Source of the DNA: a virus
Strand: one strand, 5' to 3'
Length of the DNA stretch: 34,621 nucleotides
IMG/VR virus record: IMGVR_UViG_3300025030_000296
Coordinates: 1-34,621 of that record
Each line of letters starts with the position of its first letter. The first letter of the stretch is position 1. Shown in pieces: positions 1 through 6,304 of the stretch. The notes below the pieces were generated by a model. It ran no database searches and was not told the origin of the DNA. It was given only the letters and a program-made list of their open reading frames with translations. The position numbers and the translations under genes were made by a program.

Positions 1-25
1 ATATATCTCTCTGTTTTTTATTCAT
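1..25 (-). CDS. Start of a gene running off the left edge (partial)
   Basis: Only the first eight codons are visible (MNKKQRDI), reading left from the ATG at 25-23. A GGAGG motif lies about 10 nt upstream on the minus strand, inside a GC-rich stem (31-46). The start codon is 24 nt inside the boundary of the attC-like site at 44-101, the same layout as in the two complete cassettes upstream. I infer it is the first gene of a third cassette. Nothing can be said of its function. Confidence 0.4.
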
Positions 26-43
26 CTTCGTGGCGCCTCCGCG

Positions 44-101
44 CCATAACCAGGTAAATGCACCGGTCTGCAACCGCCGGTGATTTCCTGGCCCGTTATA
101 G
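44..101 (-). other. attC-like recombination site (site a), end of cassette 2
   Basis: In cassette orientation (minus strand) the site runs from CTATAAC to GTTATGG. The plus strand, which would be the recombining bottom strand, folds as ATAAC(46-50)/GTTAT(95-99), CAGG(51-54)/CCTG(87-90), AAAT(56-59)/ATTT(83-86) and CACCGG(61-66)/CCGGTG(77-82) with a 10-nt loop. T55 and G60 stay unpaired on this strand, and GCCC at 91-94 is unpaired next to the core. Extrahelical T and G bases on the bottom strand and an unpaired spacer by the core are known attC hallmarks. CTATAAC is the exact complement of GTTATAG, which opens the same cassette at 1028-1034. A chance hairpin or a transcript-end stem is the alternative; no U-run follows. 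Confidence 0.6.
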
Positions 102-105
102 TGCT

Positions 106-453
106 CTATGTTCCGTAGTCGATTGCCACTATTCGACCCTGAAACCATCCGAATGAATCCTGTTTGTTCTCAACAGGGACAACCCAATCTCCGGCATCAA
201 CAAACGAGTCAAAATCAAAATCAGCGTGGTCACTGCGCGAAAATTCAGACGCACGAGCCATAACAATCAGAAACCCGCCAGAGATTGCAAACAGCACAGG
301 ACACAGTTTGTCGCTCTTGAGTTGCCGCCAAAAATTAGCCTCTTGCATATTTGCTAGCAGCCCGTGAAGGAACAACCGCCATTCCACAAAACGAGGAATT
401 TTAATTGCGTACCGTTTTGTTAAAAATACATTCCGAGTTGCACCCTGTTTCAT
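106..453 (-). CDS. Conserved hypothetical protein (115 aa), cassette 2 gene 3
   Basis: The protein opens with a basic segment (MKQGATRNVFLTKRYAIKIP) followed by a WRLFLHGLLANMQE helix and an LCPVLFA...GGFLIVMARA strand pair. I associate this pattern with a small uncharacterised family met in phage and accessory DNA, but know no function. No signal peptide or membrane segment is evident. The ATG overlaps the stop of the upstream zinc-ribbon ORF (ATGA), so translation is probably coupled. The stop codon lies five bases from attC-like site a, as is typical of the last gene in an integron cassette. Confidence 0.75.
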   Translation of the reverse strand: MKQGATRNVFLTKRYAIKIPRFVEWRLFLHGLLANMQEANFWRQLKSDKLCPVLFAISGGFLIVMARASEFSRSDHADFDFDSFVDAGDWVVPVENKQDSFGWFQGRIVAIDYGT

Positions 454-617
454 GGTTGTATTTCCCTTATTAACCGTTGCAGCCTTATAATGTCTGCGAC
501 TTTACAAGCTGGGCAGTAGTAGGTTCCCCGCGACTCTTCCAGTGGAGTGTTGCAATCTGGGCAGCGATATTTGTTCTTTTCTGCTTCCTGCGCCGTCAAA
601 GTTTTAATTATCCGCAT
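450..617 (-). CDS. Small zinc-ribbon protein (55 aa), cassette 2 gene 2
   Basis: This short ORF reads MRIIKTLTAQEAEKNKYRC and continues with two CPxC knuckles, CPDC and CPAC, about 15 residues apart. It ends in a basic/aliphatic helix (IIRLQRLIREIQP). The paired CxxC motifs predict a structural zinc ribbon; the target (nucleic acid or protein) is unknown. The ATG at 617 overlaps the last 14 bases of the upstream gene and the stop overlaps the next ATG, so the three genes of the cassette form one coupled string. A TTG at 599 is a possible later start. No strong Shine-Dalgarno is visible. Confidence 0.6.
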   Translation of the reverse strand: MRIIKTLTAQEAEKNKYRCPDCNTPLEESRGTYYCPACKVADIIRLQRLIREIQP

Positions 618-993
618 ACTTTAAACCACTGAATATCTCAGCCAGTGCCACTAGTTGAGCCGTCGCAGTGGCAGTCTTGTCCGGCCCCAAGGGGTAAAAC
701 ATTGCTTTCCATTGATCGATATCAAAATTTGCTTTGCGGCAGGCTTCCAACAGCTTCTCTTCTGTTATTGTTTCTGCCGGTAAATCTGACACGCGCCGTT
801 CTATGGCTCCCCATGTTGGCTCATATTCAGGCCAGCCAGATTCTACAACAACACACTTGAGAGGCCCACACCCTGTATTTTGTCTGTGGTGGTGGATGGC
901 ATCCAAAATATCATCCAGAAAGTTATGTTGTTGCGTAGTCAAGATGGTCAAATCGCTATTTTTCATTACTGTGTATCTGCTTTCTCTTTTCAT
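604..993 (-). CDS. Hypothetical protein (129 aa), cassette 2 gene 1
   Basis: A soluble, mixed alpha/beta protein beginning MKRESRYTVMKNSDLTILTT, with a helix QQHNFLDDILDAIHHHRQ near residues 21-38. I do not recognise the family. The ATG at 993 is chosen because AAGGAGC lies 7 nt upstream on the minus strand; a second Met at residue 10 has no comparable site. It is the first gene after the attC-like site at 1028-1115, with a 40-nt leader from the cassette boundary, and its end overlaps the zinc-ribbon ORF. Confidence 0.7.
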   Translation of the reverse strand: MKRESRYTVMKNSDLTILTTQQHNFLDDILDAIHHHRQNTGCGPLKCVVVESGWPEYEPTWGAIERRVSDLPAETITEEKLLEACRKANFDIDQWKAMFYPLGPDKTATATAQLVALAEIFSGLKYADN

Positions 994-1027
994 TTTTAAG
1001 CTCCTTTTCCTTATTGCCGCAACCGCT

Positions 1028-1115
1028 CTATAACCAGTCGCGGCACACGGTCTGCGCTACCGCTTGCCGGTGCACTTAGTCGTTATGCCTCAAAATCTGA
1101 AGCCCCGTTAGCAAA
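1028..1115 (-). other. attC-like recombination site (site b), end of cassette 1
   Basis: In cassette orientation the site starts with TTTGCTAAC (plus strand 1107-1115, overlapping the stop codon of the upstream gene) and ends with GTTATAG (1028-1034). TTTGCTAAC is the exact 9-nt complement of GTTAGCAAA, which opens the same cassette at 1603-1611. The interior folds imperfectly: CGGCA/TGCCG and CGGT/ACCG pairs around a 7-nt loop. A second possible R'' core, GCATAAC (plus strand 1082-1088), would give a 61-bp site much closer in size to the other two. The exact left boundary is therefore uncertain. Confidence 0.5.
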
Positions 1116-1584
1116 CCTCTATCACCTTCGCCCCGTCTGCTCGTACAGTAGTAATCCGCATGAGTGGGCTATTGTCCGGTACAGGGTGATTGTCGTTTGG
1201 TTCGATAATTGCCCCTGTCTCTGGGTATTCGCCGTTGCCGAGTGTATACGGTTGCGTGTAATCCTCGTAAAGTTTGGGGGTGACACCTTCCTTGAAACAG
1301 CTTTTCAGCTTTTCCAGCCAGAAATCATCCAGCAAATGAAACGACTGGTTTTCATGGCGGGAGAGTGTACCGTCAGGGTGCCGGAGCAAAACCATATCGC
1401 TACCGAATGCACCGGCTTTCTTTCTGACCTGTACCACGTAACCGACATAGTTATTCCACCCCTTAAATCCGCCCGCTTGTGGACCTGTAATGACGTATTC
1501 GCCAGGCATAGGGTGTGATCCAAAGTGCGTCATTTTCTCGTAATTGCGAGATTTTACTATCAGTTCGAGTATTTCATCGTTCAT
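1108..1584 (-). CDS. Hypothetical protein (158 aa), sole gene of cassette 1
   Basis: The product starts MNDEILELIVKSRNYEKM and has a beta-rich middle (MPGEYVITGPQAGGFKGW, then GYVVQVRKKAGAFGSD, VLLRHPDGTLSRHENQSF) that looks like a small barrel or KOW/SH3-type fold; this is only a visual guess. I do not recognise the family. The frame stays open to an ATG at 1731, but that extension crosses a terminator-like hairpin and the attC-like stem at 1603-1661. The ATG at 1584 has AAGGGGG 8 nt upstream and lies 26 nt inside the cassette boundary, so I prefer it. The stop codon sits inside the R'' core of site b. Confidence 0.7.
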   Translation of the reverse strand: MNDEILELIVKSRNYEKMTHFGSHPMPGEYVITGPQAGGFKGWNNYVGYVVQVRKKAGAFGSDMVLLRHPDGTLSRHENQSFHLLDDFWLEKLKSCFKEGVTPKLYEDYTQPYTLGNGEYPETGAIIEPNDNHPVPDNSPLMRITTVRADGAKVIEVC

Positions 1585-1602
1585 GCCGCTATCCCCCTTC
1601 GA

Positions 1603-1661
1603 TTTGCTAACCACCGGCACAGCGGGTTTATCGCCCGCCGCTGTGCCGGTAGCCGTTATAT
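1603..1661 (-). other. attC-like recombination site (site c), upstream of cassette 1
   Basis: In cassette orientation it runs from ATATAAC to GTTAGCA. The centre is a perfect 13-bp stem (ACCGGCACAGCGG pairing with CCGCTGTGCCGGT) with a 12-nt loop, and TAAC/GTTA pairs at the base. On the plus strand the 3' arm is followed by AGCC before GTTAT, matching the GCCC before GTTAT in site a and the GCCCC before GTTA in site b. The very regular stem lacks an obvious extrahelical base, unlike site a. It separates the leader/terminator segment from cassette 1, so it could be the remains of an earlier cassette or the entry point of the array. Confidence 0.45.
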
Positions 1662-1688: not shown

Positions 1689-1723
1689 TAAAAAAGCCCC
1701 ACCCATCAAGAGATGGGCTTTTT
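1689..1723 (-). terminator. Rho-independent terminator, probably two-way
   Basis: CCCATC(1702-1707)/GATGGG(1712-1717) forms a tight stem with loop AAGA, and flanking A-run and T-run extend the pairing (AAAAAGCCC/GGGCTTTTT alternative). On the minus strand the stem is followed by CTTTTTT, which would end the operon from 3162. On the plus strand it is followed by CTTTTTGC. It lies five bases after an 18-codon leader ORF, so attenuation of transcription into the cassettes is possible. Confidence 0.65.
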
Positions 1724-2112: not shown

Positions 2113-3162
2113 TTAGTCCATCGGTGTCCGACGGGTCAACGGAATTTCCGGTTCTTCTTGTGAGTCCTGGTCTGGTACCGGTTTTTGTTCCTCTTCCGGC
2201 GAAAAGCTTTTTACTCCGTAGGTGTACCCTGTGCTCTTAGGAGCAGATCTCTTCAGTTCTTCGACTCGGACGAAAAGCTTATCGAGAAGTATCACCAGAT
2301 TCGTACCATCTTCGAGGAAGTCAAAGGTCTTGAGGCTGATCAGTAGTTTCTGCGCCACGCTCTCGACGTGTCCGCCTTTCCTACCAGTTACGTCGATGGC
2401 TCCGTTCTCCATGACGGGATAACCGGAAGTTCTGCTTGAGTAAACCGCTTTCTTATCACTTCCGGGGCTTATATCCACCGGCTCGTCTGAGATTGGGTCC
2501 ACGTCGGAGATCACCCAGTGCTCTTTGATATGGTCAGCTCTGGCCTTGAGGTATTTGAGAGGAGATCCAAGAAGAGACACCTGCTCCGCCGATGTCATAA
2601 AGTACCTCCGACGGGTTATCGGGTGATATAGGATGTTCGGCGACCGCAGGGTTAAACCTGCTCGCTCTCTCAGTGCGTCCCTGGCACGGAGAACTGCGGC
2701 CCTTGAGGAGTCCATAGCCTTGAGCTCAGTGGCGGAGCTGAAACTGAAGAATCCACGCTTATTGATGTTCTCTACGGCAAACTGGATGGCAATGGGTGTG
2801 GCCGCATTCGAATCACTCTTCGCTTTATGCCTCTGCATCGCAGCATCCACGGCTCTCAGGGATCGGCCAGTCTCCTCTGCGTATGCTTTTCTTTCCTTGT
2901 GAGATAAAAGGACAAGCTGGTCAAGTTCTTTATCGGTGTAGGTCTTCCTCCTGTCACGGATTCTGTTTCCGAGCGGCTTGTCTCTCAGGTAGTAGCAGAC
3001 CATCTGGTAGGCTGATTGAAAGCTGCGTCCTTCGAAGTAAGCCGCGAACTCAGTGACCAGTGCCTGAGGGATGGTGGGATCACCCACGGTGAGAGTCTTT
3101 TCAAGTTCCGCGGCGCGGCGGCGTAGCGCGTTCCTCAGTTGGTCGTTCTTTGCAAATGACAT
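2113..3162 (-). CDS. HTH-like hypothetical protein (349 aa), leftward operon
   Basis: A basic soluble protein. The N-terminal third is arginine-rich and helical (LRNALRRRAAELEKTL). Residues about 73-104 (YTDKELDQLVLLSHKERKAY to SLRAVDAAMQRH) look like a three-helix Myb/SANT or recombinase-type HTH, with the RSLRAVDAAMQRH helix resembling a recognition helix. The C-terminal tail is acidic and proline-rich (EEEQKPVPDQDSQEEPE). The frame opens at 3201, but ATG 3162 has AGGAGG 6 nt upstream and the earlier ATG falls inside the promoter, so 3162 is preferred. A DNA-binding or regulatory role is inferred from the basic HTH-like region and its place beside the divergent control region. The family is not recognised. 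Confidence 0.7.
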   Translation of the reverse strand: MSFAKNDQLRNALRRRAAELEKTLTVGDPTIPQALVTEFAAYFEGRSFQSAYQMVCYYLRDKPLGNRIRDRRKTYTDKELDQLVLLSHKERKAYAEETGRSLRAVDAAMQRHKAKSDSNAATPIAIQFAVENINKRGFFSFSSATELKAMDSSRAAVLRARDALRERAGLTLRSPNILYHPITRRRYFMTSAEQVSLLGSPLKYLKARADHIKEHWVISDVDPISDEPVDISPGSDKKAVYSSRTSGYPVMENGAIDVTGRKGGHVESVAQKLLISLKTFDFLEDGTNLVILLDKLFVRVEELKRSAPKSTGYTYGVKSFSPEEEQKPVPDQDSQEEPEIPLTRRTPMD

Positions 3163-3191
3163 AATATCCTCCTGGTTAGATATGTGGTATG

Positions 3192-3220
3192 GGTGTAACA
3201 TTAAGTTTGGAGGTTGTCAA
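3192..3220 (-). promoter_or_regulatory. Sigma70-type promoter for the leftward operon
   Basis: On the minus strand TTGACA (3220-3215), a 17-nt spacer and TGTTACACC (extended -10, hexamer TACACC at 3197-3192). Transcription would start near 3185, giving a leader of about 23 nt that holds the AGGAGG of the 349-aa gene. Confidence 0.6.
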
Positions 3221-5345: not shown

Positions 5346-5636
5346 ATGAGAGACCGCACACCAGGACCATGGGAAGCCAAAAAAGGGCCGATATATCTGG
5401 AAAATAAGTACTACATAACCAGCGAAGATGGGTTTATTGTAGCCGCTACGGGATTCCAGAGCGAAGAGAACGCGATTAATGCGCATCTAATTGCCGCAGC
5501 TCCTGATATGCTGGAGGTGTTACAGGGATTGCATAAGGCGCTGGCACGCATGATTGACAAGCACGACCCTGACAGCATAGAGGCCGAATGGTTGCAGCAC
5601 TCACATGAGGCGATTTTAAAGGCCCAAGGTAAATAA
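5346..5636 (+). CDS. Conserved small phage protein (96 aa)
   Basis: Starts MRDRTPGPWEAKKGP and contains ENAINAHLIAAAPDMLEVLQ at residues 41-60. The TPGPW opening together with NAxLIAAAPDxLExL is a signature I recognise from a widespread family of small phage proteins of unknown function. GGAGG lies about 12 nt upstream, a rather long spacing. It is the last gene of the early run; a strong terminator follows 15 bases after the stop. Confidence 0.75.
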   Translation: MRDRTPGPWEAKKGPIYLENKYYITSEDGFIVAATGFQSEENAINAHLIAAAPDMLEVLQGLHKALARMIDKHDPDSIEAEWLQHSHEAILKAQGK

Positions 5637-5650
5637 ATAAGCTTCATCCA

Positions 5651-5686
5651 AGCCCGGAAGTGTCAAGTTCCGGGCTTTCTTTTTTG
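5651..5686 (+). terminator. Rho-independent terminator after the early genes
   Basis: AAGCCCGGAA and TTCCGGGCTT form a perfect 10-bp stem around the loop GTGTCAAG, followed by TCTTTTTT. Confidence 0.85.
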
Positions 5687-5878
5687 TCCGCGCCCCTCAC
5701 TTTGTTCGGGGATTAAGTAGCACCTATCGGTGCATAGCGTGCCGCCTTTCATTACAACCGAATAGTTACGCCCTGGCGGGCGGGATGAAAAGCCGACATA
5801 GCGATTTTGAGAGGGGCACCTGGGGGGATTTGTTGCGACCCGGCCGGAGTACTAATCATCCAGAATGTGATATATGAG

Positions 5879-5908
5879 CACCCAAAAATCCGAAAAAGTA
5901 AAGAATTT
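5879..5908 (+). repeat. Operator-like direct repeat, block 1
   Basis: CACCCAAAAATCC then GTAAAGAATTT at 5898-5908. Block 2 repeats both parts at almost the same spacing 93 bp downstream. A pair of binding sites for the XRE-type regulator is inferred. Confidence 0.5.
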
Positions 5909-5971
5909 CACACGCTTACAGGTGGAGCCGCGACGAGGGGTGAGATGGAGGAGAGGGGTGCGGAAGGATAC

Positions 5972-5999
5972 CACCAAAAATCCCATCTGTAAAGAATTT
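5972..5999 (+). repeat. Operator-like direct repeat, block 2
   Basis: CACCAAAAATCC then GTAAAGAATTT at 5989-5999. It ends seven bases before the putative -35 at 6006, so a protein bound here would touch RNA polymerase. Confidence 0.5.
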
Positions 6000-6005
6000 A
6001 ACCCC

Positions 6006-6034
6006 TTGACCCCCGCATCCACTTCATGCTAAAT
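6006..6034 (+). promoter_or_regulatory. Probable promoter of the XRE gene
   Basis: TTGACC (6006-6011), a 17-nt spacer and TGCTAAAT around 6027-6034. The -35 is good and the -10 is weak, which fits a regulated promoter. It lies directly after operator-like block 2. Confidence 0.4.
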
Positions 6035-6058
6035 CTACTAAAAAAGAGGTGATTTCGT

Positions 6059-6304
6059 ATGCGGGAAATACGGCTCCGCCTAAAACTCAGTGTCGCGGAA
6101 TTTGCAGAGCTTCTGGGCCTTGAGAAGTCCACGTACCAAGGGTATGAGTCGAGGAGGAGAAAGACCCCGCCTGACATGATTCTCAAGGCGCAGGAAGCTG
6201 AGAGGCTCAACACCAAGTTCTTCAAAGAGCTGCCTAAGAGGATCGACAAGGCGCTCGGTGGTCGTGGGGTGCCTAATGTGGCGAGGAATGTCCCGTGGGA
6301 GTGA
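6059..6304 (+). CDS. XRE-family HTH regulator (81 aa)
   Basis: Residues about 9-33 form a compact XRE helix-turn-helix: LSVAEFAELLGLEKSTYQGY followed by ESRRRKTPP. The remainder is a helical tail (LKAQEAERLNTKFFKELPKR), so it is shorter than cI-type repressors and lacks a cleavable C-terminal domain. AGAGGTG lies 8 nt upstream. It sits between the early terminator and the late promoter, where it could repress or time late transcription. The operator-like blocks upstream suggest autoregulation. Confidence 0.8.
   Translation: MREIRLRLKLSVAEFAELLGLEKSTYQGYESRRRKTPPDMILKAQEAERLNTKFFKELPKRIDKALGGRGVPNVARNVPWE

Follow-up and report, generated by a model that had tools for sequence, protein, structure and literature searches.

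Can a phage genome fragment that encodes no integrase carry an integron-type array of gene cassettes, and which hairpin in such an array belongs with which gene? Integrons are familiar chiefly for capturing genes in bacteria, and the question is raised by the left end (positions 1–1661) of the window, a complete IMG/VR record (linear, 34,621 bases) that represents a genome fragment with terminase (TerL), portal and major capsid genes. We consider it very likely that this region is the start of an integrase-less integron-type array in the early/replication region of a podovirus-like phage, with attC sites upstream and genes inverted. Each cassette would comprise an attC hairpin together with one, two or three small phage genes, which point the opposite way from genes in bacterial cassettes. 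This reading draws on features of the sequence: the sites, their complementary ends, their orientation, and a conserved place with differing content in two relatives.

Hairpins, cores and cassette limits

An earlier note on this DNA had described three hairpins with AAC...GTT cores, and these same places (44–101, 1028–1088 and 1605–1661) take the top three ranks in a scan for attC geometry over both strands of the 34.6 kb. The cores of all three conform to the R'' RYYYAAC and R' GTTRRRY consensus. The complementary unit ends that the note had reported on the minus strand are exact: GTTAGCAAA pairs with TTTGCTAAC over 9 nt, and GTTATAG with CTATAAC over 7 nt. Complementarity between the start of a cassette and its own R'' is a trait of integron cassettes, and both complete units of the window have it. 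Across the arrays examined, the complementary ends range from 6 to 14 nt, and hairpin pairs with unit ends complementary over at least 7 nt occurred in one case in 895 kb of Markov-randomised sequence. In locus L053, the unit ends GTTGTGCCC and GGGCACAAC match by eye over 9 nt. In L068, the core of one cassette (5395–5835) is GTTC, and its ends are complementary over 14 nt, well above the usual 7.

For an independent view of the sites we built a covariance model, R1, from 11 attC sites of class 1 integrons, phage TJE1 and Shewanella phage M16-3, all written in gene direction and none taken from the window; Vibrio phage L102 was left out because the hairpin scan found its long sites poorly. Run on the window with filters off, as a check that the earlier note had proposed, R1 ranks 1028–1088 and 44–101 first, and every other match has an E value of at least 6. 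The two matches are modest in strength (Table 1). The model is nevertheless specific, since 837 kb of other phage DNA gave just four matches with E <1. At the thresholds used, it misses the site at 1605–1661 and both sites of the related contigs G010 and G011. Thus, of the three hairpins put forward as attC sites, two are recovered by R1, while the third, a perfect stem, is not. Two R1 matches 0.9 kb apart on a contig without an IntI match make the array a CALIN, defined as at least two close attC sites with no intI. The note's integron-type array on a phage contig lacking an integrase is upheld. Rfam, which holds no attC family, has no family matching the window hairpins.

Extrahelical bases on the L'' arm of attC are a determinant of strand choice. 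In most R1-detected sites such bases lie on the canonical arm (136 versus 12). In the window they are seen on the + strand reading of 44–101 and 1028–1088, and there are none at 1605–1661.

The middle site has two cores, with G^TT at 1082 and at 1107, and its odd length is explained by a 25-nt remnant of another attC end sitting between them. The remnant resembles the ATCTGAAGCCCCG end in L105 and looks like the scar of a lost cassette. The limits of the units first proposed, 50–1033 and 1034–1610, are redrawn here. In the orientation supported by the evidence below, cassette C covers <1–95, cassette B 96–1082, the remnant 1083–1107 and cassette A 1108–1655. The gene of cassette C runs off the contig. 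Leftward extension of the contig, also proposed in the note, found no continuation when the exact contig-end sequence was used; the complete cassette C came to light through another phage contig, L107.

Table 1. Features of the array and the adjoining phage genes in the window
Feature	Position	Strand	Details
Cassette C gene, first codons only, cut by contig end	1..25	-	Complete copy in L107
attC of cassette C	44..101	+	R1 15.1 bits, E 0.081; antisense to cassette C gene
Cassette B gene 3, 115 aa, phrog_4301	106..453	-	
Cassette B gene 2, 55 aa zinc-ribbon protein	450..617	-	
Cassette B gene 1, 129 aa	604..993	-	First 70 aa = phrog_7810/7432
attC of cassette B	1028..1088	+	R1 20.7 bits, E 0.0025; antisense to cassette B genes
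Remnant, 25 nt	1083..1107	+	attC 3' half TCTGAAGCCCCG, direct reading; present in L105 too
Cassette A gene, 158 aa, phrog_33619	1108..1584	-	
Hairpin site of cassette A	1605..1661	+	R'' TTTGCTAAC, R' G^TT at 1655; perfect 13-bp stem
Terminator-like hairpin	1698..1718	-	T-runs on both strands; between phage gene and array
Phage gene adjoining array, 79 aa	1858..2097	-	
D5-like regulator	2113..3201	-	Homologue precedes array in G010/G011

Orientation of genes relative to attC

In bacterial cassettes the gene lies upstream of its attC and in the sense direction with it. The window departs from this rule: both R1 sites are on the + strand and all cassette genes are on the - strand, antisense to attC. 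The same model places the sites of TJE1, the Shewanella phage and the class 1 integrons in the expected sense orientation. Four lines of evidence, namely the R1 orientation and three comparisons between contigs, agree that each attC probably stands in front of its own gene, the opposite of the bacterial arrangement. The polarity favoured in the earlier note, with the hairpins read on the minus strand and each at the far end of its gene, was therefore wrong.

The first comparison is between loci L052 and L108, whose flanks are 99.4% identical on both sides. L052 has one unit more, which reads stem-GTTATGATGC-gene-GCATCATAAC, and the stem retained in L108 is the other one. The breakpoint thus falls at the gene-sense R'', and therefore the stem belongs in front of the gene, with the proviso that replication slippage at a 9-nt repeat, CATAACGGC, could also account for the difference. 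In the second comparison, L107, which carries RecT and exonuclease genes, matches the window at 97 of 101 nt across the third stem and the beginning of cassette C, and its preceding cassette differs from that of the window and has a different R''. In the third, L148 and L175 have 290 of 291 nt in common, nothing else in the stretches compared, and unrelated flanks. The common piece opens with G^TTAGGCGTCAC, continues through a gene in antisense and closes with GTGACGCCTAAC, the stem and G^TTAG, with 12-nt complementary ends; by its sequence, it has exactly the limits of an attC-type cassette, and its gene is inverted. The naturally occurring units of L148/L175 and L052/L108, which end at G^TT, are consistent with integron-integrase recombination there.

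Together these comparisons point to phages gaining or losing, and sharing, single cassettes with exact limits. The mobility proposed in the earlier note is borne out to that extent, whereas its suggestion of easy exchange with host integrons needs a proviso, because an inserted phage cassette would read against the cassette promoter. The stem and leader of the cassette B attC are also common to the window and phage contig L106. Within the otherwise inverted array of L106, a 197-aa gene (5551–6144), membrane-anchored as judged by eye, is in the normal orientation.

We surveyed how general the inversion is by searching one attC arm pattern against IMG/VR (64 loci) and against bacterial and archaeal genomes (80 loci from 120 matched stretches). 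Both sets were scored with R1, with near-identical contigs removed in part, and orientation was called, by a simple ORF-orientation rule, between neighbouring sites with a clear gene. The viral set also took in the window, L053 and L068. Bacterial integron cassettes gave 85 sense versus 4 antisense calls (14 loci), in a control set that is mostly Xanthomonadales; the four antisense calls looked like spurious ORFs and not phage genes. The viral set, in which phage hallmarks were checked in part of the contigs, gave 13 sense versus 60 antisense. A single locus, L174, contributes 9 of these sense calls and one antisense call, leaving 4 sense versus 59 antisense in viral contigs without IntI. With cassettes treated as independent, the bacterial and viral orientations differ at Fisher p ~ 4e-32. 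Inversion is seen in at least two dozen phage contigs besides the window.

The L174 contig, G041, is the sole mainly sense viral contig and also the sole encoder of a full IntI (489 bits) among the 39 records searched, the other 38 having no IntI above the family cut-off. The locus (IMG/VR 2834908352_000001, G041:47278-48222) is a complete integron with IntI and 13 sense-oriented attC sites, and its contig is classed as viral. TJE1 is an exception of a different kind, an integrase-free phage array in sense orientation. Loci L129 and L140 each have two attC groups, on opposite strands, at the two sides of the locus.

Phage context and rival readings

By terminase, the nearest array-bearing relatives of the window are G010 (58.6 kb) and G011, with TerL 67% identical. 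In both, homologues of the D5-like gene are followed immediately by two small cassettes, with complementary ends of 7 and 9 nt, and then by a phage DNA polymerase gene. Since the array of these relatives lies between the D5-like genes and the polymerase, its place inside the phage genome is conserved while its content differs. On this gene context, the window array is phage-resident. The earlier note had named one outcome that would speak against an array, namely the lack of any attC match combined with an invariant gene order in related phages; what we see is R1 matches and a cassette content that differs in G010 and G011. Several other arrays also have a clear phage setting; among them, two inverted arrays lie within the head module, between the TerL and portal genes (L137 3732–4989 and L155 3127–4038). 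In L147 (1400–2539) a reverse transcriptase gene adjoins an inverted cassette array.

A search for integron integrases found none on the window contig, G010 or G011, and thus none of the three has the intI gene of a complete integron. On the side where an attI site would be expected, the window array extends past the contig end. There is no integrase on this contig, and as it is a fragment, one could lie elsewhere in the genome.

The cassette genes have phage relatives. The cassette A protein has relatives in phages L002 and L003 (67%) and L004 (48%), a homologue of cassette B gene 1 sits within the L053 array, and the zinc-ribbon gene matches, at 84% in DNA over 76 nt, a gene of relative G012 that is outside any array. 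The 70-aa N-terminal part of cassette B gene 1 recurs in many enterobacterial and environmental phages, sometimes in cassettes, as in L053, and sometimes outside them. Searched against PADLOC for defence and anti-defence functions, the cassette genes gave no match, and against Pfam they gave weak or sub-threshold matches only. By DNA, the array region matched no record in the named-phage collection, nor did the shared L148/L175 cassette or an L143 attC; thus, we found no isolated phage with window-type cassettes. The cassette-start motif was absent from the genome collection searched. At the right contig end (34457–34621), the sequence stops within a tandem repeat coding for APETL repeats, probably an assembly break.

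Three other explanations have to be weighed against a phage-resident, inverted array. The cassettes might be of the normal bacterial type, each gene followed by its own attC, and picked up from a host integron. Complementary unit ends are compatible with either polarity, and TJE1 demonstrates that the normal arrangement can be present in a phage. We regard this explanation as improbable, as the R1 orientation, the L052/L108 breakpoint, the sharing with L107 and the L148/L175 unit all place the stem with the downstream gene, and outside the IntI contig the viral survey runs strongly the other way. Still less probable is that the hairpins are intergenic terminators or RNA control elements, with genes changing by ordinary phage mosaicism. 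The perfect stem at 1605–1661, devoid of attC asymmetry, would suit this idea, as would the stems and short leaders common to different phages and the 9-nt repeat that also explains the L052/L108 difference. Set against these are unit ends complementary over 6–14 nt, compared with a single chance case of at least 7 nt in the randomised sequence, the placement of extrahelical bases on the canonical arm, and, in L148/L175, cassette exchange exactly at G^TT.

The least probable explanation, in our estimate, is a host chromosomal integron array adjoining a prophage end, or a chimeric assembly, the former having been the alternative offered in the earlier note. The position of the array at the end of a fragmentary contig is in keeping with such an explanation. 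The explanation is disfavoured by G010 and G011, where the corresponding place, flanked on each side by phage replication genes, holds other cassettes, by the phage-type genes in the window cassettes, and by L107, a different phage of the same sample series that also carries cassette C.

Relation to known systems and proposed mechanism

The inverted, phage-resident array shares with sedentary chromosomal and class 1 integrons its R''/R' cores, its G^TT boundary, the size of its cassettes and an operon-like organization, and two of its three sites show the asymmetry of attC stems. The difference is one of polarity: bacterial integron cassettes read with attC, and the phage cassettes in the reverse direction. 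Neither an integrase nor, for want of an intI to anchor it, an attI was found with the phage cassettes. Morons and ordinary phage mosaicism likewise produce small accessory genes that vary at one place per lineage, but window-type units have exact attC-type boundaries and move singly.

Integrase-free phage CALINs are known from Qi et al. 2023 (PMC9892861), which describes attC cassettes in phage genomes without intI, like those of the window. The arrays described there run in the same direction (TJE1, PH101) or in some cases divergently, and IntI1 recombined 5 of the 6 phage attC sites tested (PMC9892861). Vibrio phage Va_90-11-286_p16 and Shewanella phage M16-3 are given there as phage-borne integron arrays, as here, but they carry an integron integrase and host-type arrays, unlike the window (PMC9892861); the Shewanella phage array scores as sense in our analysis. 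Systematic inversion of genes relative to attC is not reported in the available text (PMC9892861). MW202573, an annotated phage genome in its list, scores as inverted here, with attC antisense to the deposited genes and unit ends complementary over 6–7 nt. Thus, the kind of element is known, the phage CALIN, and what departs from the usual is the gene-against-attC polarity. Systematic inversion in phage arrays appears to be unreported in the open-access journal papers searched.

How would such arrays work? Since they are without an integrase of their own, the phages may rely on the integron integrase of the infected host, which would cut and join cassettes at G^TT in trans. Because the cassette genes run the same way as the flanking phage genes, they may be expressed by read-through from the phage's own operon. 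Through the inversion, the bottom strand of attC, the recombinogenic one, would come to lie on the coding strand, which would be the lagging-strand template where replication and transcription run the same way. In Vibrio cholerae, cassette excision is sharply raised when the recombinogenic attC strand is on the lagging-strand template (PMC11023631); that this strand effect is the selective reason for the inversion is a guess. Phages would thereby have a pool of accessory genes that exchanges quickly and stays separate from that of bacteria. We lean towards the wider view that many kinds of integrase-free phages share one inverted pool, with attC before the gene, the active strand coding and host IntI acting in trans, such that exchange is high in phages and the cassettes are silent in host integrons.

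Phage CALINs have only recently been reported, as occasional finds. The inversion implies that phages have a cassette pool of their own, beyond the mere carriage of host cassettes, from which cassettes pass singly between otherwise different phages. Annotation that presumes the bacterial polarity will pair attC sites with the wrong genes. The inversion also ties the attC strand to replication and to the rate of exchange in a way that can be tested, and it offers a mechanism by which small phage genes could turn over fast. The inverted arrays thus suggest that phages maintain a stock of exchangeable genes of their own.
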